From Paenibacillus tianjinensis (GTDB lineage: Bacteria; Bacillota; Bacilli; Paenibacillales; Paenibacillaceae), in NCBI RefSeq assembly GCF_017086365.1, contig NZ_CP070969.1:682001-746000 (forward strand): 64,000 nt of DNA, given 5' to 3'. A program made the position numbers and the translations under genes. The notes beneath the pieces were generated by a model that was not told where the DNA came from, ran no database searches, and saw only the letters and a program-made list of their open reading frames with translations. The stretch's first letter is position 1. Each line of letters opens with the position of its first letter. Below are positions 39,552-61,095 of the stretch, piece by piece.

Positions 39552-39721
39552 TTTGAGATAAAGGAAACTGAGCCCGCGTGAGACATCTCAAGTGAAGTGA
39601 TAATATGAAACAATGGTATTTTGATCCAAAATTATATACTATAATGGTCTTCAAGGTGAACTATCATTCGGATATCTGGAAGAACAAAGCGACTCTATCT
39701 TATTGTATAGGAGCTAACCTA

Positions 39722-41665
39722 ATGAGTGATTTATCCAAGCTTAACAAGCAAAAATACATCTACTGGTTAAAGCAGAAAAGAAAATCAAATGGGGAACTAT
39801 ATTCCGATAATACAGTGAATTCGTACGCCTCATCATTATCGACCGCACCTGCCAGACTTTCAGGAATTGAATTGGAGAATACAGATGTTTACGGGATCAC
39901 TTCAGCTAATTACTTTCATGAGATTAGACAGCGTATGGAAAGGGCGGAGAATTTCGAAGAGATTAACATCAAGGCTGGCAACAAAGCTTTTCAATATGCT
40001 CTTGAGTACTATGAGGATTTCTTGCGTGAACAGGAAAAGGGGAATGAATCAGTTGGTGATGCCGATGGAAGTACTTTGAACTATTCGATAACGAGCACGC
40101 CTATAAAATTTACAGCTGCTGCTGGACTGCCTACCGCACTCCTTGATAAAAATATTATTTTATATGGCCCTCCAGGTACAGGCAAAACCTACAATACGGT
40201 CACATATGCAGTCGCAATCATTGAGAACAAGCCCTTACATAACATTATGTATGAAGTAAGAACCAGAGGTTATGAAGTAATCCAGGAACGCTACCGTTCT
40301 TACAAAGAAAAGGGACTTATTGAGTTCACAACATTCCATCAATCCTATGGCTATGAGGAGTTTATTGAAGGGATTAAGCCGAAGCTTCAGCAGGGTGACG
40401 AGACAGGTCATATTGGCGATAATGTTGCGTACGAGATAAAGCCGGGAGTGTTTAAACAATTCTGTGAAAAAGCGCAGACTCCAGTTATTCAGGACAGTAA
40501 TACGTACGGAATTCGTAATGAACCAGTCATATGGAAGGTCTCACTCGGCGGTTCGGGCCAAAGTGATGTGAAACAGGATTGCTTTGATAATGATAGAATC
40601 CGGATCGGGTGGGACTCTTACGGAGAACGGATTACAGATGAGACGGACTTCAGAGAATATGGCGGAGCGACGATCCTGTCCCGGTTCATGAGCGAGATGG
40701 TGATCGGTGATATTGTCCTGATTCTCCATGATGAAAAAACTATTGATGCCATCGGTGTCGTTACAGGTGAATATGAATGGCTCAATCAAATGGAGGATTA
40801 CAAACGTTCCCGCAATGTAAAATGGCTTGCCAAAGATATCCGGGAGGATATTTATGCGCTCAATGGAAATAAGGTTATGACACTGGGCTCAGTATACAGG
40901 CTGAACAGAATCACGCTTGCGGATGTACTGGTCATGCTAAAAGCGAATAGCAATGTTCATAGTACAGCAATTCAGGAGAATGCAAACAATTACGTGTTTA
41001 TTATCGATGAAATCAACCGCGGCAATATCTCGAAAATTCTCGGGGAGTTAATTACGCTGATTGAGCCGTCCAAACGTATTGGACAAGCAGAAGAAATCAG
41101 ACTGAGGCTGCCTTACTCACAAGAAGTGTTCGGTGTTCCGGGCAATGTCTATCTGCTTGCCACAATGAACACTGCTGACCGTTCGATTGCCAGGCTGGAC
41201 ACTGCGCTGCGCCGCCGTTTTCATTTTGCGGAAATGATGCCGTGTCCGGAAGTGCTTGATAGTATACAGGTTGGTAATGAGGTCATTGAGTTGTCGGCCA
41301 TGCTGGAAATGATGAATCGTCGTATCGAGGTACTATATGACAGGGAGCATATGATCGGGCATGCTTACTTTATGTCATTAAACAATCACTCTGCTCTGGA
41401 TGATCTGGCTCACATTTTCCGCAATACGATTATCCCGCTGCTGCAGGAGTACTTTTATGAAGACTATGACAAGATCCGGCTCGTACTTGGTGACAATAAC
41501 AAACCTGAGAGTGAACAGTTTATTCTGGCCAAAAAGACGGATATAACGGAGCTGTTTGGGAATATGAACGATTTTGAGTTTGATGACGAAGCAGCCTACG
41601 TGCTTAATGAAGAAGCGTTTGAAAATGCCCAAGCCTACCGCAAAATATACAGTCGCAGCTCATGA
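39722..41665 (+). CDS. mcrB: McrB-like restriction AAA+ GTPase with inserted PUA/EVE-like domain
   Basis: A 647-residue motor subunit of a McrBC-type modification-dependent restriction system. Residues 1-105 are a helical N-terminal region (YIYWLKQKRKSNGELYSDNT) reminiscent of integrase SAM-like domains. The AAA+ core has Walker A GPPGTGKT at 149-156, Walker B FIIDEINRG at 426-434 and the McrB hallmark MNTADRSIARLDTALRRRF at 482-500. Between Walker A and B, about residues 268-405 form an extra domain (WKVSLGG, RIRIGWDSYG, GDIVLILHDEKTIDAIGVVTGEYEW, RNVKWL) resembling EVE/PUA modified-base readers. AGGAGCTAACCT fits the ATG at 39722, not the longer frame from 39605. It overlaps mcrC by 4 bases. 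Confidence 0.9.
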   Translation: MSDLSKLNKQKYIYWLKQKRKSNGELYSDNTVNSYASSLSTAPARLSGIELENTDVYGITSANYFHEIRQRMERAENFEEINIKAGNKAFQYALEYYEDFLREQEKGNESVGDADGSTLNYSITSTPIKFTAAAGLPTALLDKNIILYGPPGTGKTYNTVTYAVAIIENKPLHNIMYEVRTRGYEVIQERYRSYKEKGLIEFTTFHQSYGYEEFIEGIKPKLQQGDETGHIGDNVAYEIKPGVFKQFCEKAQTPVIQDSNTYGIRNEPVIWKVSLGGSGQSDVKQDCFDNDRIRIGWDSYGERITDETDFREYGGATILSRFMSEMVIGDIVLILHDEKTIDAIGVVTGEYEWLNQMEDYKRSRNVKWLAKDIREDIYALNGNKVMTLGSVYRLNRITLADVLVMLKANSNVHSTAIQENANNYVFIIDEINRGNISKILGELITLIEPSKRIGQAEEIRLRLPYSQEVFGVPGNVYLLATMNTADRSIARLDTALRRRFHFAEMMPCPEVLDSIQVGNEVIELSAMLEMMNRRIEVLYDREHMIGHAYFMSLNNHSALDDLAHIFRNTIIPLLQEYFYEDYDKIRLVLGDNNKPESEQFILAKKTDITELFGNMNDFEFDDEAAYVLNEEAFENAQAYRKIYSRSS

Positions 41666-42972
41666 TAAACCGGACGAAATATACCATTAAGGAATATGAT
41701 TCATTCACTAAAAATCAGGATGTGAAGCTCCCGAACCTTCATTATATGCCTGAACCTGTTTTTGACTGTCTGGAGCAGTTTGTGTTGTCCAATCGACAGG
41801 TGTCAGATACGGATCCATTGGAGCTGATGGTGGTAACGAGCAAAAGAGGGATCGGCAAAGTTATCAGCGCCCGTAACTATGTAGGTGTGATCACCATGAA
41901 TAGTGGGGTACAGATTGAGATCCTGCCTAAACTATATTCACGGAATGCGGAGAGCTCTGAGAGGGAAACCAAACAGGTTTTCCTGAAAATGCTGAAATCA
42001 CTCCTACGGATACCTTTTAAGCATTTTAATTTCTCCAGTCTGAACCAGGAGAAATACAGCATTCTGGATATTTTCATCCGGATGTTCGTTGAAGAAGCCT
42101 ATATTCTGGTCAAACGGGGATTGAAGTCCGCGTATACCGGACACGAGGACAACGAGTATTTCTATAAAGGCAAACTCAAATTTGCTGAACATATCCGGCT
42201 AAATGCGGTGCATAAGGAGCGCTTTTACATCGAATATGATGTATTCAGTGCAGATCGACCGGAGAACAGATTGATTAAATCAACGATCAGAGTTCTGCAG
42301 AAGGTCTGCTCCAGCAGAAAACTACAGAAGGATCTGTACACCCTGTCCACTGCATTTGAGTCTGTAGAGTTCTCGGCAGATTACAGCCAGGACTTTGCCA
42401 AAGTCACAGATGATCGGAATATGAGTGAATATGCAATAGTTCTGCAGTGGTGCAGAGTGTTTCTGTACAGAAATAGCTTTACGCCGTTTATAGGAAACGG
42501 GGTAGCATATGCTCTATTGTTTTCTATGGAAAAGGTTTTTGAAAGCTATCTTGCCGGACAATTGAAGAAAAAGCTGGCTCACCCCAAGTATTCGCTGATG
42601 ACGCAACACCGGCTGTACCATCTTTTTGATGAGCCCGGGCAGCGCTTCATGCTAAAACCGGATATCGTAGTTACCTGTGCTCAGGGTACGGTTGTCCTGG
42701 ATACCAAGTGGAAGAAGCTTACACCGGATGGGAATCATGGAATTTCGCAATCTGACATGTATCAGGCCTATGCCTATCATAAGAAATACTCTGCTCAAAC
42801 TGTAATTCTTGTATATCCTTGGACATCAGAGGTAGCGGAGATAAAAGATCCAATCATATATAGAAGCAAGGACGGGGTTACGGTTCAGGTACATTTTGTG
42901 TATTTAGGTGAGGATACTGATGGTGTAGGGGAGTTAAGCGGTTTAATTGAGGCGGCACTTGCCGGCTTCTGA
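41662..42972 (+). CDS. mcrC: McrC-like nuclease subunit
   Basis: A 436-residue partner of McrB, overlapping it by ATGA. An N-terminal region is followed by IEILPKLYSR and the helical body. The C-terminal PD-(D/E)xK nuclease core is visible as LKPDIVVTCAQGTVVLDTKWKKL, with Asp and the D-x-K dyad in place. In E. coli McrC stimulates McrB GTP hydrolysis and cuts DNA carrying modified cytosines. The modification recognised here would depend on the McrB reader domains. The gene is intact. Confidence 0.92.
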   Translation: MINRTKYTIKEYDSFTKNQDVKLPNLHYMPEPVFDCLEQFVLSNRQVSDTDPLELMVVTSKRGIGKVISARNYVGVITMNSGVQIEILPKLYSRNAESSERETKQVFLKMLKSLLRIPFKHFNFSSLNQEKYSILDIFIRMFVEEAYILVKRGLKSAYTGHEDNEYFYKGKLKFAEHIRLNAVHKERFYIEYDVFSADRPENRLIKSTIRVLQKVCSSRKLQKDLYTLSTAFESVEFSADYSQDFAKVTDDRNMSEYAIVLQWCRVFLYRNSFTPFIGNGVAYALLFSMEKVFESYLAGQLKKKLAHPKYSLMTQHRLYHLFDEPGQRFMLKPDIVVTCAQGTVVLDTKWKKLTPDGNHGISQSDMYQAYAYHKKYSAQTVILVYPWTSEVAEIKDPIIYRSKDGVTVQVHFVYLGEDTDGVGELSGLIEAALAGF

Positions 42973-53442: not shown

Positions 53443-53501
53443 TTCACATTCAGCAGCAAGCGCGTTATCTTATATAGTAAGAAATGTTCTTTATAAAGAA
53501 C
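53443..53501 (+). promoter_or_regulatory. probable promoter and operator of lasso peptide operon
   Basis: TTCACA (53443-53448) and TATCTT (53466-53471) are spaced 17 bases, a fair SigA promoter. A perfect 16-bp palindrome, GTTCTTTATAAAGAAC, lies at 53486-53501, just past the expected transcription start, where a bound repressor would block elongation. The cyclase ATG follows at 53522 after AGGTGGAGG. Confidence 0.6.
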
Positions 53502-53521
53502 CAACAGGTGGAGGCCTTCCT

Positions 53522-55453
53522 ATGAGTGCAATCGCCGGTATCTACCATCTACAGCAGCATAATTTGGACCCTGAGCAGGGACCGGATTTGATGAAGCAGC
53601 TTAACCGTTACCCGGCTGACGATGCCAGGGGCTGGCAGAGTAAGAGTGTTTTTCTCGGATGCCGGTCACAGTGGATTACACCACAATCTATAAATGAGCA
53701 ACTGCCTTACTATGATCCCGAGCGGAAACTGGCCATTACAGCTGATGCGATCATTGATAATAGAAGTGAATTATTAAATACACTGCGCGTACCCGCCCCA
53801 GACAGGGAATCTATACCCGATAGTCTGCTGATCCTGCTGGCTTATGAGAAGTGGGGGGAGCAGGCACCGGTATATCTGGTGGGTGATTTTGCATTTATGA
53901 TCTGGGATGAGCGGCAGCATAAACTGTTTGGGGCAAGGGATTTCTCCGGCAACCGGACGCTTTATTTCCACAGATCCCAGAGCAGCTTTACTTTCTGCAC
54001 AGTTATTCATCCGCTGCTGTCGCTGGCGGGTGTGGGGAATGAACTAAGCGAACAATGGGTTTCTGAATTTTTGGCGATTCCGAATAGAGTAGATGCTACG
54101 GACTGCTTCTCGACAGTGTACCGGTCGATCGAACAGCTCCCTCCTTCACATTCTATCTCCATAACCGGAGGGAACATTACCTTCTCCCGTTATTGCACAC
54201 TGCTAGCGCCTCCGGAATTGCGTCTTAGCTCCAATGGGGAATATGAAGAGGCTTTCCGTGAAGTCTTCGGACGGGCAGTGAAGGACCGGCTTCGCACCCA
54301 CCTGGCAGCAGGGGCTAACTTAAGCGGCGGACTGGATTCCGGCTCTGTCGTCAGCTTCGCAGCTGAAGAACTCCGGCACCGCGGCCAGCCGCTCTATACG
54401 TTCAGTTCTTATCCTGTAGACGGCTTTGCCGGATTCAATCTCGGGAAAAGGGTTGCTGATGAACGTCCCTACATTCAGGAGACGATCGATTATGTAGGAA
54501 ACATTCAGCCCAGTCTGCTGAACTTTCCCGAACGCAGCCCGTACAGTGAGATTGATGAGTGGCTGGATATCATGGAGATGCCGTATAAATTTATCGAAAA
54601 TTCCTACTGGCTGAAGGGAATCTATGAGCAGGCACAGCAGAAGGACATTGGCGTGCTGCTCAGCGGACAAAGAGGGAACTGGAGTATTTCCTGGGGACCC
54701 GCTCTGGATTACCAGGCCAAGCTGATCCGTGAATTCCGGTGGCTTACCTTTTATCGTGAGAACAAGGGCTATACCCAGTCCATGGAGGCGAACCGCCGGA
54801 AGGTGCTGCAGATTGTCGGCAAAAAAGCTTTCCCTTCACTAGGCAGACTGCTGCCCCGCCAGCAGGAGACGGTGCCTGAGCTGATTGATCCCGGCTTCGC
54901 CAAGCGGACGGAAGTGCATGAACGGCTCCGGGAGTTCAATGGGCCCGTGGGCGCTTCTTCGCCGACTGTCTATGATATCCGAAGGAAACATTTCGAACAG
55001 CCGCATATCTGGAATGTTAACGGAACCGTCGCCACTAAGCTGTCGCTGAAATACCGGATATGGGACCGGGATCCAACGAATGATCTGCGAGTCATCCGTT
55101 TCTGCCTGTCTGTTCCGGAAGAACAGTACGTTCAGAACGGGGTAGACCGCTCGCTGATCCGCCGTGCGATGGCGGGCCGGTTGCCGGATAACGTCAGGCT
55201 GAACCGGAAGCGGCGCGGAGTGCAGGGGGCGGATGGTATCCACCGGATGATTCCGCAGTGGGGCGCCTTTCTGAGCGAGCTCCGGGAAATGACTCAGGAT
55301 GCCCGCGCAGCTGCCTATTTGAATAGTGCCGGGCTCGCCGGATGTTTGGACCGGCTGGGTAGTGAGCCCGCACCAAGCTTGATCTTTAATGCGGATTTTC
55401 GCCTTTTGACACGCGGACTTGTCTTTTACCGTTTCTTGAAGCGTCTGTCTTAA
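53522..55453 (+). CDS. padeC: lasso peptide macrolactam cyclase (asparagine synthetase homologue)
   Basis: A 643-residue asparagine-synthetase-like protein that would adenylate the ring Asp of the core peptide and join it to the N-terminal amine. Residues 1-210 form the glutaminase-like domain, but position 2 is Ser instead of the catalytic Cys (MSAIAGIY), as in lasso cyclases that need no glutamine. The synthetase domain has the PPi loop NLSGGLDSGSVVSFAAEEL near 265-283 and the later DLRVIRFCLSVPEEQYVQNGVDRSLIRRAM region. It is first in the operon; the precursor starts 29 bases after its stop. The neighbours make the assignment firm. Confidence 0.95.
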   Translation: MSAIAGIYHLQQHNLDPEQGPDLMKQLNRYPADDARGWQSKSVFLGCRSQWITPQSINEQLPYYDPERKLAITADAIIDNRSELLNTLRVPAPDRESIPDSLLILLAYEKWGEQAPVYLVGDFAFMIWDERQHKLFGARDFSGNRTLYFHRSQSSFTFCTVIHPLLSLAGVGNELSEQWVSEFLAIPNRVDATDCFSTVYRSIEQLPPSHSISITGGNITFSRYCTLLAPPELRLSSNGEYEEAFREVFGRAVKDRLRTHLAAGANLSGGLDSGSVVSFAAEELRHRGQPLYTFSSYPVDGFAGFNLGKRVADERPYIQETIDYVGNIQPSLLNFPERSPYSEIDEWLDIMEMPYKFIENSYWLKGIYEQAQQKDIGVLLSGQRGNWSISWGPALDYQAKLIREFRWLTFYRENKGYTQSMEANRRKVLQIVGKKAFPSLGRLLPRQQETVPELIDPGFAKRTEVHERLREFNGPVGASSPTVYDIRRKHFEQPHIWNVNGTVATKLSLKYRIWDRDPTNDLRVIRFCLSVPEEQYVQNGVDRSLIRRAMAGRLPDNVRLNRKRRGVQGADGIHRMIPQWGAFLSELREMTQDARAAAYLNSAGLAGCLDRLGSEPAPSLIFNADFRLLTRGLVFYRFLKRLS

Positions 55454-55482
55454 TGAAGATCGCCTGAAAGGGGGTGACAAAC

Positions 55483-55608
55483 ATGAAAAAGGAATACAGC
55501 AAGCCTGCTTTGGAAGTGCTCGACGTGAAGATGACTATGGCTGGACCCGGAATAGCTATTGCCGACTCCTTCCAAGATGATCCGGATGAGATCGTACATT
55601 ATTCCTAA
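55483..55608 (+). CDS. padeA: lasso peptide precursor, paeninodin-like
   Basis: A 41-residue peptide preceded by an excellent AGGGGGTGA ribosome site. The leader MKKEYSKPALEVLDVKMTM carries the Y-x-x-P-x-L motif read by PqqD-like recognition proteins and the conserved Thr at -2. The core is residues 20-41 (22 aa): it begins AGPGIAIAD, has Asp at core position 9, continues with an acidic DDPDE stretch and ends HYS. By analogy with paeninodin, Ala1 is joined to Asp9 and the C-terminal Ser22 is phosphorylated. It differs from paeninodin, as I recall it, at core positions 5-8, 10, 13, 18 and in lacking the penultimate Asp. It is shorter than usual gene-calling limits. Confidence 0.93.
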   Translation: MKKEYSKPALEVLDVKMTMAGPGIAIADSFQDDPDEIVHYS

Positions 55609-55626
55609 AATTTTGTGGTTCGCGCG

Positions 55627-55670
55627 GCCCTCATCCCCCTGTGCTTGCTGGAGGGGGATCAGGGCTATTT
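55627..55670 (+). terminator. hairpin between precursor and kinase, possible attenuator
   Basis: GCCCTCATCCCCCT (55627-55640) pairs with AGGGGGATCAGGGC (55652-55665) with one C-C mismatch over an 11-base loop, followed by TATTT. The T-run is weak, so partial termination or 3'-end protection of the upstream mRNA is likelier than a full stop. Confidence 0.65.
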
Positions 55671-55720
55671 CCATCATCCGGACTATTCCGGGTGACAAAT
55701 TGGCTTAGGGAGGGAATCTG

Positions 55721-56656
55721 ATGGCGAGTACCGTTCAAGGCCTGGCTTATAAAGCCTTCGGCCTGCAAATATTCAGTGAATTCCCCTTGCCGGAGCTTCC
55801 CCTTACAGATGAGCCGGGATTGATCGGCAGCGTGGTTGTGATTCGCGGCGATCTTGCGGAGCGCTGGCAGGCGATTCCCAAGGTGACTCCAAGTCTTGGT
55901 GTGCTGGGCAGCGAGGTGATGTTCGAAGCGAAGGATACGGCTATTTTTTCAATTCAGGACGGGATTAGGATTACGGTATCGCCTGCGGCTGGAGCAGATA
56001 TGGACTGTGTCCGGCTGTATATCCTGGGGAGCTGCATGGGTGTCCTGCTGATGCAGAAAAAGATTCTCCCGCTGCATGGCAGCGCGTTAGTACTCGATAA
56101 CAAAGCTTATGCGCTTGTTGGACGTTCAGGAGCGGGCAAATCGACACTCGCCTCGTATTTGATGGATCAGGGACATCTGCTGGTCAGCGACGACGTTATT
56201 CCCGTTATGGTGCAAGAAGGGCAGCCGCTTGCAGTTCCAGGTTATCCGCAGCAGAAGCTGTGGCAGCAAAGCCTGGACTATATGGGAATGAATTCGTCCC
56301 TCTACCGTCCGCTTTTTGAAAGAGAAACCAAGTTTGCTGTTCCGGTGCATGACCGCTTCCAGACAGAGCCGCTGCCGCTTGCCGGTGTGTTTGAACTGGC
56401 GGTGTCTGAAGAGGAAGGCCCCGTAACCGTGCAGCCCATCAATGGGATGGAGCGTTTCCATACATTATTCAATCATACCTACCAGAAGGCGATTGTCGAC
56501 CGGATCGGGATCCGGGAATGGCATTTCGGCATGCTGGCATCCTTCGTGAACCGGCTGCCGATGTACCGGCTGACCCGGCCGAAACAGGGCTTTAGTGCTC
56601 CTCAGCAGACCTCGCTGATTTTTGAAACGATTAAGCCACAAATGGAGGAGAGATAA
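55721..56656 (+). CDS. padeK: lasso peptide tailoring kinase (HPr kinase homologue)
   Basis: A 311-residue HPr-kinase-like protein. The P-loop ALVGRSGAGKSTLASYL lies at about 131-147, followed by HLLVSDDVIPV; the C-terminal RLPMYRLTRP closes the fold. The N-terminal 110 residues are the extra domain typical of lasso kinases. In the paeninodin system this enzyme phosphorylates the C-terminal Ser of the precursor, and the precursor here also ends in Ser. GGAGGGAATCTG precedes the ATG. Only 3 bases separate its stop from the next gene. Confidence 0.92.
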   Translation: MASTVQGLAYKAFGLQIFSEFPLPELPLTDEPGLIGSVVVIRGDLAERWQAIPKVTPSLGVLGSEVMFEAKDTAIFSIQDGIRITVSPAAGADMDCVRLYILGSCMGVLLMQKKILPLHGSALVLDNKAYALVGRSGAGKSTLASYLMDQGHLLVSDDVIPVMVQEGQPLAVPGYPQQKLWQQSLDYMGMNSSLYRPLFERETKFAVPVHDRFQTEPLPLAGVFELAVSEEEGPVTVQPINGMERFHTLFNHTYQKAIVDRIGIREWHFGMLASFVNRLPMYRLTRPKQGFSAPQQTSLIFETIKPQMEER

Positions 56657-56659
56657 ACG

Positions 56660-56959
56660 ATGAATACAGCAGATGTGTTGTCGCTTCAAACAGTGCTCGT
56701 TAAGCGTCCGGGCAATATCGCCAGCGATATGGACGGCGAGAAGGTCATGCTGAATGTGAAGAACGGCAAATATTACAATCTGGGTGAGGTCGGCGGAGAA
56801 ATCTGGTCTGCTCTGGATGAGCCGGTCTCCATTAACCGGATTGTGCAGGTTATTCAGGAAACGTTCGATGTTCCGGCAGAGACAGCAGAACAGGACGTAT
56901 TCGAATTCGTGCAAAGCCTGCTGGCTGAGGATCTGGTTGCCATTGACAGCGGGTCATGA
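56660..56959 (+). CDS. padeB1: lasso B1 protein, PqqD-like RiPP recognition element
   Basis: A 99-residue winged-helix RRE protein: SDMDGEKVMLNVKNGKYYNLGEVGGEIWSAL (in pieces) and the INRIVQVIQETFDV helix are the PqqD pattern. It would bind the precursor leader and deliver it to the B2 protease and the cyclase. GAGGAGAGATAAACG precedes the ATG. It overlaps B2 by 4 bases (ATGA), so the pair is translationally coupled. Confidence 0.93.
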   Translation: MNTADVLSLQTVLVKRPGNIASDMDGEKVMLNVKNGKYYNLGEVGGEIWSALDEPVSINRIVQVIQETFDVPAETAEQDVFEFVQSLLAEDLVAIDSGS

Positions 56960-57411
56960 CAGCAATGCGGCGGTTTCGTCTGTTGCTTAATGACCGGGCC
57001 GTTGTAGCGCTGCTTCCGGAAGCCTTATGGCGTCTGTTCCTGGCGAGAATCCGGCTGCTGTTCCCGTTCGATAAAACGGCGCCTCAGCTCGGGGCTCAGT
57101 CGCAGGAAACTGCTGAGGTGTCCAAGGCCGCCGATGCGCCGAAGATCCGCCAGATTACCCGGGCCATCCGGGTAGGGAGCAAAGTGACTCCCTGGAAAAG
57201 CACCTGCATGGTCAGGGCGGTTGCAGGCCTCAAAATGCTTGAAAAACGCGGAATTGACAGCACACTGTACATGGGTGTCGCCAAAGACAAGCAGGGCCGG
57301 ATGATTGCTCATGCCTGGCTGCGCAGCGGGTCTTATTACGTCTCCGGTGACGATGTGATGAAGGGTTTTGTTGTGGTGGAGAAGTTCGCGAAGGTGATAC
57401 AAGCCGAGTAA
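56956..57411 (+). CDS. padeB2: lasso B2 leader peptidase (transglutaminase-like)
   Basis: A 151-residue cysteine protease of the transglutaminase_3 type. The triad is visible: Cys84 in KSTCMVRAVAGL, His119 in IAHAWL, and Asp132/133 in VSGDD. With the B1 protein it would cut the leader after Met19, two residues past the conserved Thr, freeing Ala1 for ring closure. The size is normal for split (B1+B2) systems. Confidence 0.93.
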   Translation: MTAMRRFRLLLNDRAVVALLPEALWRLFLARIRLLFPFDKTAPQLGAQSQETAEVSKAADAPKIRQITRAIRVGSKVTPWKSTCMVRAVAGLKMLEKRGIDSTLYMGVAKDKQGRMIAHAWLRSGSYYVSGDDVMKGFVVVEKFAKVIQAE

Positions 57412-57424
57412 TCGAGGTGTGCTC

Positions 57425-59224
57425 ATGCAAGCAATAATCTATTATATCCGGCAGCTTCAGCGCTTGTCCGGAGTGAAGCTGTATCTGAATCTGCTGGGCA
57501 TGGTGATCAGCGGCCTGCTGGAGAGCTCGGCAATTCTGCTGCTTGTGCCGATGCTGGGCATGGCGGGGCTGCAGCTGGGCGGAACAGGAGCTGTGTACAA
57601 TCTTCCTGTGCTCGGGTTCATATCGGAGCTGCCGCAGACATCAGCACTTGGGCTGGTGCTCGGCGCATACGTCCTTATCGTACTCTGCCAGAATTTAATT
57701 TCACGGTTTGTTGCAGTCCGCAACGTGGAGATTCAGCAGAGCTACAGCCGGCAGCTGCGATATGAAGTTTATAGTGCTCTGCTGCGGGCAGAGTGGTCCT
57801 TTTTCCTGAAGAAACGCACCTCAGACCTGATCAATATCATGACTACGGAGATGGCGCGGGTGCTTGCCGGTATCAGCTGCTTCCTGCAGTTTCTTACCTC
57901 GCTGCTGTTCACTATGGTACAGATCGCTTTTGCCTTCTGGCTGTCTCCGAAGATGACCCTCGCTGTACTGGTCTGTGCGGTGCTGCTTTCCTTATTCTCC
58001 CGCAGATTTATCCGCAAGGCCAAGAAGCTGGGCAGCCGCAGTTCCCTGCTCGGCCAAATGTATCTGGCCGGAATTTCCGACCAGCTGAACGGAATCAAGG
58101 ATATCAAGAGCAACAATCTGGAGCAGTCCCGGCTGGACTGGCTGCATGAATTTACCGGTGAGGTGAAGAACGAACAGCTGGATTATACACGTCTGCGTTC
58201 AAACTCCCAATTGCTCTACAAAATGTCCTCCACACTGCTGATTGCAGTGTTCATTTTCGTTTCTTTCCGCTTTCTGCACGCGGAAGGGCCGAATCTGCTG
58301 CTGGTCATTCTTGTATTTGCCCGGCTGTGGCCGACCTTTGCCACGCTGCAGTCGCTGATGGAACAGCTCGCCTCCGTGCTGCCTTCCTTCAAGCAATTGA
58401 AGCAGCTGGAGGAGGAATGTCTGCAGGCTGCCGAACAAGGTACTCCAGATGGAACCGGAGTGCCGGTTAAGGCTATTACCTTGAAGCAGAGCCTGGAAGC
58501 GAGAGATGTCTATTTCCGTTATCAGCCGCAGGAGCCGCACTATTCGCTGCAGGGGGTCAATGTCACGATTCCGGCTAACCGGATGACGGCCATTGTCGGA
58601 CGCTCAGGCGCAGGAAAAAGCACGCTCGTTGATCTGCTCATGGGACTGATGCAGTCTGAGTCGGGCGACATTCTGGCCGACGGCAAGCCGATTACGGGAG
58701 AACGGCGGCTGTCTTACCGCCGCTCGATCGGTTATGTGGCGCAGGACCCGTTCCTGTATAATGCCACAATCCGGGATAATCTGACGATGATCAAACCGGA
58801 TGCCAGCGAGGAAGAGCTGTGGGAAGCGCTGGAGTTTGCCTCTTCGGTCGACTTTGTCCGCAGGCTGCCGCAGGGGCTGGACACGCTGATCGGCGACCGG
58901 GGCATCCGCTTATCCGGCGGCGAGCGGCAGCGGCTGGTGCTGGCGCGGGCGATTATCCGCAAGCCGTCCATCCTGGTACTGGATGAGGCGACAAGTGCAC
59001 TCGATACCGAGAACGAGAAGCGGATTCAGGAGGCGCTCGACCGGCTGAAGCACTCCGTCACGCTGATCGTCATCGCCCACCGCTTGTCCACGATCCGTGG
59101 TGCGGATCAGATTCTGGTTATCGACCAGGGCCGCGTAATTCAGCAGGGGGTTTTCGGCGGACTGGCCTCCGACAAAGGCGGCATGTTCAGCCGGCTGCTC
59201 AGCAGCCAGGAAGAGGCGATGTAA
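57425..59224 (+). CDS. ABC exporter, probable lasso peptide transporter/immunity
   Basis: A 599-residue half-type ABC exporter: six TM helices at about 15-310, then an ATPase domain with Walker A GRSGAGKSTLVDLL near 393, signature LSGGERQRLVLARAI, Walker B ILVLDEATSAL and switch His in VIAHRLST. All sites are canonical, so a homodimer is expected. It follows the B2 gene by 13 bases and should export the mature lasso peptide, which may also give self-protection. No peptidase C39 domain is present, consistent with cleavage by B2. The ATG at 57425 is preferred over the GTG at 57419 because GAGGTG is placed for it. Confidence 0.93.
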   Translation: MQAIIYYIRQLQRLSGVKLYLNLLGMVISGLLESSAILLLVPMLGMAGLQLGGTGAVYNLPVLGFISELPQTSALGLVLGAYVLIVLCQNLISRFVAVRNVEIQQSYSRQLRYEVYSALLRAEWSFFLKKRTSDLINIMTTEMARVLAGISCFLQFLTSLLFTMVQIAFAFWLSPKMTLAVLVCAVLLSLFSRRFIRKAKKLGSRSSLLGQMYLAGISDQLNGIKDIKSNNLEQSRLDWLHEFTGEVKNEQLDYTRLRSNSQLLYKMSSTLLIAVFIFVSFRFLHAEGPNLLLVILVFARLWPTFATLQSLMEQLASVLPSFKQLKQLEEECLQAAEQGTPDGTGVPVKAITLKQSLEARDVYFRYQPQEPHYSLQGVNVTIPANRMTAIVGRSGAGKSTLVDLLMGLMQSESGDILADGKPITGERRLSYRRSIGYVAQDPFLYNATIRDNLTMIKPDASEEELWEALEFASSVDFVRRLPQGLDTLIGDRGIRLSGGERQRLVLARAIIRKPSILVLDEATSALDTENEKRIQEALDRLKHSVTLIVIAHRLSTIRGADQILVIDQGRVIQQGVFGGLASDKGGMFSRLLSSQEEAM

Positions 59225-59240
59225 CACTAACACAACTTAA

Positions 59241-59285
59241 AACGCACCCGGTCTCCACGAGCAGTGGGGATCGGGTGCGTTTGTT
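59241..59285 (+). terminator. terminator of lasso operon
   Basis: AACGCACCCG (59241-59250) pairs perfectly with CGGGTGCGTT (59272-59281), with a further inner pairing GTCTCCAC/GTGGGGAT, followed by TGTTT. Confidence 0.88.
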
Positions 59286-59717
59286 TAGTTATATCGTGCT
59301 ACTCAAATTCTCTGCTTGTCGGCTGCTCAAGCGTGATGCGTAAGTACTTCGCTAAACGTGCTATTCAAGCTGGACATGCACAGGCTTCCCTGCCTGCATC
59401 CGCGCTAAGTGTATTTCGTGCAGTTATTTTCTTGCTTTTGTAACTCTTTTTGAGTTTAGTTGCACATTGTACAATTGGAAATGCCGGATTGCTGATATTC
59501 TGCCGAATGCTTACAGATTAGATGTACGAAGTGCAGCTAAATCCTGTTTTGCCCGGAAATCTTGAATTGTAGTTGTACGAAATACAGTTATTCCGCCGAT
59601 CGTACGCTAATTAAGCGCTGGAACGAAGCACGAATCTATCATTTATATATCTATTGTTTCATCTCTCAGAGATCTGCTATTATTGAATGCGCCTAATCGA
59701 TTCTACGGCAGTAACTA
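59286..59717. repeat. non-coding region with four copies of a 19-20 bp element
   Basis: No gene. TGTACGAAGTGCAGCTAAAT (59523) and TGTACGAAATACAGTTATT (59574) lie on the plus strand. An inverted relative (TTTAGTTGCACATTGTACA, 59455-59473) and TGTATTTCGTGCAGTTATT (59410), whose middle is inverted relative to the third, make up a cluster between convergent operons. Confidence 0.65.
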
Positions 59718-60905
59718 TCAGGATTCCCCCCGGCCGGTTACCTTCCGCCAAGCCCACAGGAAAGGGCGAAGCGGGAAGTAGAGTACATGCAGCGGCTTCG
59801 GGAGCGGAAGCGTTTTGGCATCCGCCGCATACGGATATAAGAAGCCAGCTACGTACAGGAACTGATGCCACGGCGTCAGGATCGCCGGCTGATAATACCT
59901 GAAATGCCGCTTCACTTCCGGCGCAAGCGGCGGATTGTGCAGATTGACCATCCGGGATACATAGAATAACGCAAGCTGTGCCAGACGGCGGGCCTTCGGT
60001 TTGTCCGCCAGAGCAGACAGCCTGGAGTCAACCGGCGTGTCCAGCAAATCGCTGGCAAGGATCAGCGTCTGCCCGGCGGCAGCTTCATAGTTGTACCGTT
60101 TAAGCAGCTTGGCCAGCACCGCGCAGTCTGGCTGCTGAAGCAGCAGCTGTCTGATATCAAGCAGCCATCTCAGCCGTGACCAGCCATGCCGCGAACCGTG
60201 CGCCGCCAGGAACAGGAACAAATCCTCCCTGCCCAAATAATGCACATCCGGGCCCATTAGCTTGCTTGTCCGCGCATGCTGCCATAGCTCCTCGAAATTC
60301 GGCTCTGTGGATGGACCGGGACTTAATCTCCAGTGTACCTCAACTTTGATTTTGCTGTCTTCATGATTGAAGGTTGTATGATGCTCCCGCCACTTCCAGT
60401 CGCCCAGGATACTTTCGAAGTCTTCCTCCTTCACATACCCCAGGCGGAGCAGCAGTGCTTCTGCCTCGTGAAGCTGCTTCATCGGTACCAGGAAATCAAG
60501 ATCACGCGAGGTGCGCAGCGATATGTCGCCATACAGATCCTCCGCCAGCACGGGGCCTTTTAGAAAAAGGGACCGTATCCCCGACTTGGCAAGCTCTCCG
60601 CCGATACGCCCCATTTCTCCGCTGAGCTGAAGCATCTGGACCGTATTTCTGCGGTATTCCCGCTGTAAACGTTCGCTGACCCGCGCAGGAACAAGTTCAT
60701 TTTGCATCCGGCTAAGCTTGGGATATATGAAAGGATACACCCGGTGATGCAGGGTAAGCAGGACAAACTGCTCCCAGTTGATCTCCGCGAACCGCTCCGG
60801 GCTGCGCTGTGCCAGCTCATCAATAGAATCGGTTGTTAAAAAGGCAAGAAGAAGCAATATTTCCTTAGATAAGCTCCCTTTATCAAGGGTATACCGGTCA
60901 GTCAT
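59718..60905 (-). CDS. nucleotidyltransferase family protein (lasso-associated)
   Basis: A 395-residue protein of the uncharacterised nucleotidyltransferase group (NTP_transf_5 type). The hallmark is SLFLKGPVLAEDLYGDISLRTSRDLDFLVP at about 110-140 (in pieces FLKGPVLAEDLYGD and RTSRDLDFLV, the Asp pair binding metal). HHTTFNHEDSKIKVEVHWRL and HGSRHGWSRLRWLLDI follow. Such genes often accompany lasso peptide clusters of Firmicutes, and their role is unknown; a peptide modification or immunity function is possible. Here it is on the opposite strand, convergent with the operon and separated by the terminator and repeats. Confidence 0.85.
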   Translation of the reverse strand: MTDRYTLDKGSLSKEILLLLAFLTTDSIDELAQRSPERFAEINWEQFVLLTLHHRVYPFIYPKLSRMQNELVPARVSERLQREYRRNTVQMLQLSGEMGRIGGELAKSGIRSLFLKGPVLAEDLYGDISLRTSRDLDFLVPMKQLHEAEALLLRLGYVKEEDFESILGDWKWREHHTTFNHEDSKIKVEVHWRLSPGPSTEPNFEELWQHARTSKLMGPDVHYLGREDLFLFLAAHGSRHGWSRLRWLLDIRQLLLQQPDCAVLAKLLKRYNYEAAAGQTLILASDLLDTPVDSRLSALADKPKARRLAQLALFYVSRMVNLHNPPLAPEVKRHFRYYQPAILTPWHQFLYVAGFLYPYAADAKTLPLPKPLHVLYFPLRPFLWAWRKVTGRGES

Positions 60906-61095
60906 AGGGACTCTCCTTACTTGAATTTAGATGCGAATGGAGCAGGTATGTTCTATTCAAAGAACGAATGCACACAGAGCGTAACATCGGCAGCAGAATG
61001 TTGTCAATTTCAATATAGTAATAGTTAGAAAAAATGATAGACGATGGGATATAATGGTCCAAACTGGAACTTCATTTTTTTTACCCGGAGGGAAT

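Follow-up and report, generated by a model that had tools for sequence, protein, structure and literature searches.

A putative SinR-type operator shared by two convergent promoters suggests that paeninodin-type lasso peptides are switched on with the biofilm

Main finding

A stretch of 64,000 nucleotides of Paenibacillus tianjinensis (assembly GCF_017086365.1, contig NZ_CP070969.1, positions 682,001 to 746,000), hereafter the window, probably carries a paeninodin-type phospho-lasso cluster organized as two transcription units that converge and have a SinR-type operator in common, its product being modified by a kinase (K) and a nucleotidyltransferase (N) and its expression being controlled together with the matrix. 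As the promoters bear a sequence found before the biofilm-matrix genes of relatives, it is suggested that these lasso peptides are switched on with the biofilm, and we propose on these sequence grounds that the SinR biofilm regulon includes paeninodin-type peptides.

The lasso peptide operon and its predicted product

The operon (53522-59224, plus strand) comprised six genes ordered C-A-K-B1-B2-D, all of which had been placed in one operon by a previous sequence-only reading of this DNA and all of which were recovered by family searches. Gene C (53522..55453) encodes an asparagine-synthase-like lasso cyclase of 643 aa, which scored above the Asn_synthase cut-off and reached 380 bits with the lass_lactam_cya model, under the model cut-off of 525, the remaining marks of a lasso cluster being present, with split B1 and B2 genes, the cyclase and an exporter in one operon. 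The precursor gene A (55483..55608), the kinase gene K (55721..56656), the PqqD-like leader-binding protein B1 (56660..56959; above the NF033536 cut-off and matching the PbaB1 structure 9x90 with an E-value of 3.5e−25), the transglutaminase-like leader peptidase B2 (56956..57411; above the NF033537 cut-off) and the ABC exporter D (57419..59224) lie on the same strand, B2 presumably relying on the Cys-His-Asp residues assigned from its sequence. After D, a terminator-like stem-loop of 19 pairs (59240..59282, plus strand) was the longest stem listed in a scan of the region that gave 10 sites against 7.2 expected, little above chance. A further stem-loop in the A-K spacer (55628..55667, plus strand) was dropped as a proven RNA element for its fold z-score of only −1.85, with 10 of 200 shuffles folding equally well, and is suggestive only. 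Complementary arms were visible by eye in the A-K spacers of related loci.

The precursor has 41 residues, a leader of 19 (MKKEYSKPALEVLDVKMTM) and a core of 22 (AGPGIAIADSFQDDPDEIVHYS) with Ala1, Asp9 and Ser22, and it matched the paeninodin family NF033524 (E-value of 8.5e−17; 60.6 bits, cut-off 27), so that homology bore out the paeninodin-type assignment made earlier. Its leader YSKP, Thr at −2, Ala1 and Asp9 agree with the motif given for lasso precursors in PMC13381572 (leader YxxP, Thr at −2, Ala1 or Gly1, and Asp or Glu at ring position 8 or 9). A total of 60 loci were fetched in the genus, 57 of which had a precursor by tblastn, while L090, L091 and L092 (genomes G181, G190 and G253), fetched at N for want of a listed precursor place, had none and were dropped. 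Each of the 58 genus precursors aligned (57 loci and the window) has a Thr at −2, Asp9 and the final Ser, and 57 of them the core start AGPG; in the whole family Paenibacillaceae, 239 of 394 genomes carried paeninodin-type precursors. The window precursor is identical to those of two other genomes of other species (L057 in G162 and L058 in G196), which rules out the unique new precursor that had been announced, and an Asp before the last Ser, whose lack had been noted as a difference from paeninodin, was absent from all 58 precursors compared. The paeninodin core used for comparison in that reading was correct (table in PMC12427821), and its masses were reproduced, the neutral monoisotopic values being 2298.0441 Da for the cyclised core and 2378.0104 Da with one phosphate. 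We infer the product, the ring closure between Ala1 and Asp9 and the phosphorylation of Ser22 from the sequence; the chemistry of the cluster is ordinary.

The kinase K (311 aa) gave a partial match to Hpr_kinase_C (E-value of 8.5e−07; 29.1 bits, under the cut-off of 33.3), and its best solved relatives were HPr kinases. Residues H119, K140, D157 and D158, which we read as the four residues (H-K-D-D) of the literature motif, did not vary in any of the 38 kinases aligned, namely that of the window and 37 out of 105 collected, and the partner precursors ended in Ser in 58 of 58 cases, as in the PadeK/ThcoK type. K appears to be a lasso-tailoring HPr-like kinase of that type, with putative activity, and the novelty claimed for it did not hold, the type being known. 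Searches of a plasmid collection with the kinase and the cyclase returned mostly distant matches, the exceptions being one Priestia plasmid and one Paenibacillus record.

A convergent nucleotidyltransferase gene

Behind the operon, the sequence-only reading had placed a nucleotidyltransferase-family gene. This gene, N (59718..60905), is present, with 213 bits against PF14907 (NTP_transf_5; cut-off 31.2), but it is no further gene of the operon, lying convergent to it on the minus strand, 494 nt past the exporter. A profile of N found no relative by sequence among solved structures. The NTP_transf_5 family and its link to kinase-type lasso clusters point to the kind of PsmN, the pseudomycoidin enzyme, which is itself known only as a “nucleotidyltransferase” in reviews. 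The 62 precursor-bearing genomes of the genus were divided into 42 of type 1 (C-A-K-B1-B2-D contiguous), 17 of type 2 (C-A-K only) and three untyped. As N stood convergent behind D in 39 of 41 type-1 clusters, it probably belongs to the lasso system, as a tailoring enzyme of the PsmN kind. By analogy with pseudomycoidin, N should add a hexose to phospho-Ser22, giving 2540.06 Da or more. The phosphopeptide predicted earlier as end product is therefore probably one step short, since N had not been read as a tailoring enzyme.

It is nevertheless conceivable, if rather unlikely, that the phosphopeptide (2378.01 Da) is the end product and that N has another role or none in the pathway. This would suit the separate convergent unit formed by N, the occurrence of a PF14907 gene in 17 of 38 genus genomes lacking a paeninodin precursor, and the pseudomycoidin sections of two reviews (PMC9266682, PMC8498205), which report no in vitro work on PsmN. 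Against it, a PF14907 gene was present in all 62 precursor-bearing genomes, the placement behind D was nearly constant, the catalytic-type residues of N were invariant in 49 of 49 aligned proteins (48 of the 94 collected plus that of the window), and several loci, of Bacillaceae and of Paenibacillus, have N inside the operon, often between B2 and D. Moreover, N carries its own operator copy, which together with the 62 genomes and the placement also led to the rejection of N as an unrelated housekeeping gene. An apparent natural interruption of N in P. ihuae was discarded, the gap being a run of the letter N in the assembly sequence.

Operators at both promoters

The half-site GTTCTYT of SinR is described as binding best as an inverted repeat (PMC3163267). 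In the window, such a repeat was perfect in the palindrome GTTCTTTATAAAGAAC (53486..53501), 14 nt past the second hexamer of the lasso operon promoter, and had one mismatch in a near copy, GTTCTATTCAAAGAAC (plus strand, 60950..60965), 44 nt from the start codon of N. The operon promoter is a scanned promoter-like pair, TTCACA-17-TATCTT (53443..53471, plus strand), whose first base is where the sequence-only reading had begun the cluster; the operator common to both promoters was absent from that reading. The scan alone is no evidence, since it gave 7 sites against 6.1 expected, little above chance; but when 37 type-1 upstream regions were combined into a consensus, ATTCACA and TATCTTA remained at 80% or higher. 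The pair assigned to N, TTGACA-18-TACGCT (60978..61007, minus strand), was read by eye and is absent from the scan's list. The whole 6.27-Mb genome has four places with at most one mismatch to the operator, two of which are the two promoters of this cluster. The other two (3400675 and 3427191) were rejected as further targets, both being inside open reading frames; the one around 3427191 resembles an HTH protein by eye.

Across the genus, operator arms matching at least 10 of 12 positions were found before C in 37 of 40 type-1 loci and before N in 21 of 39 (the other 18 scoring below 10), compared with about 1.4% of shuffles and 0 of 17 type-2 loci; in this count the upstream region of L088 is incomplete, and G237, assigned to type 1 from L149, is not included. 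The exact form occurred in 54 of 100 genus genomes. Among the 78 operator places listed, 53 had a SinR-like gene no more than 6 kb away, 21 were at a lasso precursor and four were at neither, one of which (G212) is the operator of lasso cluster L088; altogether, 75 of the 78 listed copies were at lasso clusters or at most 6 kb from a sinR-like gene. A total of 15 of the 17 operator loci opened lay before tapA-sipW-tasA-like (TapA-like/SipW) operons, the family models having been run on one copy, L156, where SipW and Peptidase_M73 were above the cut-off, the TasA model was below it and TapA-like was assigned by gene order only.

In a further set, 26 of 47 loci entered the test, with the type-1 loci of the same genus (L093-L110, L112 and L114) and one locus of Bacteroidota (L137) left out and L135 having neither C nor N to score. 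The operator stood before C or N in 10 of 10 Bacillaceae loci tested, although the copies on the Priestia plasmid scored only 10 of 12. Not all paeninodin-type clusters have it, however: of the 15 Paenibacillaceae loci with other layouts that could be scored, 14 lacked it.

The SinR-like regulator and the matrix operon

A SinR-like gene was present in 41 of 42 type-1 and 0 of 17 type-2 genomes of the genus, an association uncorrected for kinship among related loci whose operator motif was first chosen from the window and its relatives. The genus protein aligned with B. subtilis SinR with an E-value of 9e−36. SinR-like genes were found within lasso loci L062, L073, L161 and L170, and SinI-like genes near the lasso clusters of L227 and L111. 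The genome that holds the window lacks a sinR-like gene at an E-value of 1e−12, a TapA-like gene and any trace of the stretch that flanks it; sinR and the matrix operon were lost there in a 140-kb deletion. Likewise, no PF08671 (SinI) domain was found in this genome at the loose limit of an E-value of 1, the same search being positive in 11 of 14 control genomes.

The palindrome could instead be a real operator for a regulator other than SinR, XRE-type or unrelated, that shares the targets of SinR, which we consider unlikely. The window strain retains two good operators without sinR, and its genome encodes further HTH proteins of weak similarity (at best 42% over 68 residues, E-value of 2e−7). 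However, the half-sites and their spacing fit the SinR site as published in PMC3163267, the sequence precedes the TapA-like/SipW operon and lies near the SinR-like gene, that gene follows the type-1 layout, and SinI-like genes lie near two lasso clusters. That the palindromes act in RNA instead, as 5′ leader hairpins affecting stability or translation, is very improbable: they are probably transcribed, as they lie behind the second promoter hexamer, but their distance to the start codon of C varies from 20 to 90 nt (loci scoring at least 10), and the sequence itself, beyond its pairing, is found again in different genera as well as ahead of the TapA-like gene. An ordinary constitutive cluster with chance or functionless palindromes is the least credible reading and hardly worth retaining, for although 16-bp patterns are in themselves not uncommon once a mismatch is allowed (a control pattern occurred twice in the genome, and 4 of 100 window shuffles gave three matches at two mismatches), the operator is conserved in position among loci of the genus and in every Bacillaceae locus tested, and its reversed control was found in 0 of 100 genomes.

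Proposed mechanism

Judging from homologues, the leader of the precursor would be held by B1 and its terminal Ser22 phosphorylated by K; B2 would remove the 19-residue leader, C would join Ala1 to Asp9, N would add a hexose to the phosphate and D would export the product. Both units would be kept off by a SinR-like repressor sitting directly downstream of the two promoters, where the sequence places the operators. The peptide and the matrix would be made together, because SinI-like antagonists would release the repressor when the tapA-sipW-tasA-like matrix operon is switched on. In the window's strain, the cluster may be constitutive or under another regulator, since sinR and the matrix operon are deleted there. 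More broadly, it is plausible, though short of probable, that the kinase-type lasso peptides of many Bacillota, from Paenibacillus to Gracilibacillus, form a built-in SinR/SinI biofilm branch, with clusters that bear SinR operators and in some cases include a SinR- or SinI-like gene themselves, and in which the phosphorylated and probably glycosylated peptide acts in or on the matrix, either as one of its components or as a signal, any antibiotic role being secondary.

Comparison with known systems

One paper of 2026 (PMC13381572) gives the function of paeninodin-like peptides as unknown and calls a part in biofilm formation tempting speculation; the word SinR does not occur in that paper, and our literature search found no paper joining the SinR biofilm regulon with lasso peptides. 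Independent evidence for this idea comes from the operator in common with the matrix operon, and this operator also tells when the product should be sought, namely under matrix-forming conditions, at predicted masses of 2378.01, 2540.06 or 2702.12 Da.

The paeninodin cluster of Paenibacillus dendritiformis C454 has the same C-A-K-B1-B2-D order (PMC5067487), with a kinase described as phosphorylating the C-terminal Ser of the precursor, as is predicted in the window (PMC9266682), and its core shares the AGPG start, Asp9 and the final Ser (PMC12427821). The two cores differ (AGPGIAIADSFQDDPDEIVHYS in the window, AGPGTSTPDAFQPDPDEDVHYDS in paeninodin), and the window has in addition the separate convergent N gene and the SinR-type operators, a feature known from the window side only. 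The pseudomycoidin cluster of Bacillus pseudomycoides DSM 12442 resembles the window, by the description in reviews, in having a kinase and a nucleotidyltransferase-family gene, and its terminal Ser is reported to receive a phosphate and then one or two hexoses (PMC9266682, PMC8498205); in that case the nucleotidyltransferase gene belongs to the cluster itself, whereas N of the window forms a convergent unit under a promoter of its own. Linear polyphosphorylated peptides (LPP) have kinase, RRE, NTP transferase and exporter types in common with paeninodin-type clusters but, as described in PMC13381572, no cyclase and a SipW-like peptidase, unlike the window; an LPP partner in the window's genome was rejected, as the search, at its limit, gave a single PqqD-type RRE. 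Finally, the SinR/SinI regulon of B. subtilis has the GTTCTYT inverted repeats and the tapA-sipW-tasA target (PMC3163267, PMC7911366) also seen in the window's relatives, whereas a lasso peptide operon and, apart from it, a tailoring gene are among the targets proposed here.

Lasso cluster and its precursor

The lasso operon was placed by gene calls and family searches at window positions 53522-59224 (forward strand), comprising a cyclase (C), a 41-aa precursor (A), an HPr-kinase-like gene (K), a PqqD-like B1, a leader peptidase (B2) and an ABC exporter (D), and was followed by an NTP_transf_5 gene (N) on the reverse strand (59718-60905). The precursor fits the NCBI paeninodin family (E = 8.5e-17), and its leader presents, as YSKPAL, the YxxP motif that is bound by B1 proteins according to PMC13381572; the window B1 matches structure 9x90, which is PbaB1 of that paper. 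Such precursors were present in 239 of the 394 Paenibacillaceae genomes searched and in 62 of 100 genus genomes (count of rows). Comparison of the window precursor with those of 57 loci gave 36 distinct cores among the 58, with Asp9, a terminal Ser and a Thr at -2 in every one. The precursor was considered new in the sequence-only reading, but the same letters recur in two other genomes; the masses proposed there for the cyclised core, with and without phosphate, were exact when recomputed. The closest named relatives listed, all Paenibacillus, were P. ihuae and P. auburnensis, whose kinases are 98% and 96% alike, respectively, in a listing that may omit records very close to the window. Given how common the precursors are, their invariant residues and the repetition of this one, the window peptide is an unremarkable example of an established type, with known paeninodin-type chemistry.

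Moreover, a GC-rich stem-loop between the precursor and kinase genes (55628-55667), recurring by eye in related spacers, may curb transcription and leave the precursor in excess over the enzyme. Elsewhere in the window (39605-42972), two adjoining genes resemble by eye an McrB-type ATPase and its McrC-type partner, a type that restricts modified DNA.

Two layouts in the genus

The 57 fetched precursor-bearing genus loci comprised 40 with contiguous C-A-K-B1-B2-D (type 1) and 17 with C-A-K only (type 2), the C and K of the latter being about half alike. The type-2 genomes opened had B1, B2 and N elsewhere nearby, and D in two out of four; in G184, a stretch of ~13 kb separated A from B1, B2 and N, which lay on the opposite strand. 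Likewise, C-A-K and B1-B2-N were seen on opposite strands several kb apart in the type-2 locus pairs L034/L140, L033/L141 and L043/L143, with D visible in L140 and L143. A kinase, N and B1-like set ~25-31% alike was also seen on a Bacteroidota contig (L137, a MAG named Bacteroidetes bacterium). Furthermore, four loci with B1, B2 and a sinR-like gene (L144, L145, L161 and L170) appeared in genus genomes without a paeninodin precursor match, with N copies nearby in L144 and L145 and glycosyltransferase genes in L144; no cyclase was found in the fetched stretches, and they perhaps represent another peptide or a decayed cluster.

The N gene and the expected product

In 39 of 41 type-1 loci (window counted), N lay downstream of D in the convergent orientation, at a distance of 85 to 2573 nt, while the other two (L062 and L073) had a SinR-like gene directly after D. 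A PF14907 gene appeared in all 62 precursor-bearing genus genomes versus 17 of the 38 others. The K-G-P, D-x-D and later Glu of N were conserved in 49 of 49 aligned copies, which we take to fit a working nucleotidyltransferase-type enzyme. For pseudomycoidin, PMC9266682 describes a kinase phosphorylating the terminal Ser and a subsequent PsmN step placing one or two hexoses there, with PsmN perhaps itself the glycosyltransferase. On this precedent, window products of 2540.06 and 2702.12 Da would be expected.

A candidate operator at both promoters

A perfect palindrome, GTTCTTTATAAAGAAC, was found at 53486, following a promoter-like TATCTT by 14 nt. A one-mismatch copy at 60950 precedes N by 44 nt and follows a promoter-like TACGCT by 12 nt; this TACGCT was read by eye and is absent from the promoter scan listing. 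The 6.27-Mb genome had four places within one mismatch, two being these sites (control pattern, two places). Among type-1 loci, arms scoring at least 10/12 preceded C in 37 of 40 and N in 21 of 39, and those scoring at least 11/12 preceded C in 29 of 40 and N in 10 of 39; none of the 17 type-2 loci reached 10. The motif was picked from these same, related loci, so that the shares are descriptive. Dinucleotide shuffles reached 10 in 1.4-1.5% and 11 in 0.05-0.1%.

SinR and the matrix operon

According to PMC3163267, SinR recognises GTTCTYT half-sites and binds them best when they form an inverted repeat. The exact form GTTCTTWATNAAGAAC was present in 54 of 100 genus genomes (reversed control, 0 of 100). 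Of at least 78 places, those listed comprised 53 with a SinR-like gene no more than 6 kb away, 21 at lasso precursors and four at neither. One of these four (G212:C1:895925) lies 675 bases before stretch L088, whose start falls inside a lasso cyclase, and thus ~80 nt before that gene as estimated from the usual A-to-C distance, so that 75 of the listed 78 are accounted for.

Seventeen further operator loci were opened, of which 15 had TapA-like and SipW-like genes behind the operator, the TapA-like call resting on gene order, and 14 of these a TasA-like gene within the printed range; the other two were B1-B2-sinR loci. In L161 and L170, the operator precedes B1, and B1-B2 is followed by a SinR-like gene. 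Family models were run for the L156 copies only, with SipW over the NCBIfam cut-off, Peptidase_M73 over and the TasA model below its own. In the matrix operon, the operator lies 14 nt behind a promoter-like TATGAT, a spacing equal to that of the lasso promoter. Among the places listed, it was often doubled before the TapA-like operon, 148-149 bp apart (G182, 498596/498745; G206, 202085/202233; also G211, G223, G237, G240, G242, G243, G245 and G250), a spacing that could allow a tetrameric repressor to form a loop.

The SinR-like protein aligned with B. subtilis SinR over residues 1-106 (E = 9e-36), with HTH and SinI-type domains. Its gene was present in 64 of 100 genus genomes; by layout, it was present in 41 of 42 type-1 versus 0 of 17 type-2 genomes (Fisher P = 6e-14, uncorrected for kinship) and, among the three untyped precursor-bearing genomes, in G181 and G253 but not in G190.

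Searches of the window's own genome found neither sinR nor the TapA-like gene nor the flanking gene. Comparing its positions ~457956-459021 with 431795-572156 of its relative G196, ~140 kb were missing, including the sinR-like, TapA-like/SipW/TasA-like and odhA-side genes, with the junction inside a gene presumed from its sequence to be odhB-like. Since sinR is missing, the operators here stand without their presumed repressor, and we infer from relatives that the lasso cluster would belong to a SinR regulon.

Beyond the genus and comparison with known systems

In Bacillus, Oceanobacillus, Neobacillus, Priestia, Gracilibacillus and Cytobacillus, the operator scored 11 or 12 out of 12 in 10 of 10 loci, each equalled by at most 0.25% of 400 shuffles, before C or, where N comes first (three Gracilibacillus), before N. 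Fifteen Paenibacillaceae loci with other layouts could be scored, of which 14 were below 10 and one, from P. zanthoxyli, reached 11. On a Priestia plasmid, the lasso cyclase was preceded at 1.5 to 1.8 kb by two genes carrying an anti-repressor SinI annotation, and the operator copies of this plasmid scored just 10/12. In Bacillus FJAT-14578, a SinI-like ORF separates the first operator from C and is 59% alike over 32 residues to one of these plasmid SinI proteins.

In the literature searched, which includes a minority of subscription papers, no publication was found that links lasso peptides to SinR, SinI or TasA; in PMC12455637, a candidate for such a lasso-TasA link, the match for TasA was an author name. 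PMC13381572 calls the roles of these peptides unknown and a biofilm role a tempting, untested speculation. Overall, this is a known kind of cluster in an apparently new regulatory setting, whose point of interest is a candidate SinR-type operator that the lasso operon and the separate N gene have in common with the matrix operon in related genomes.
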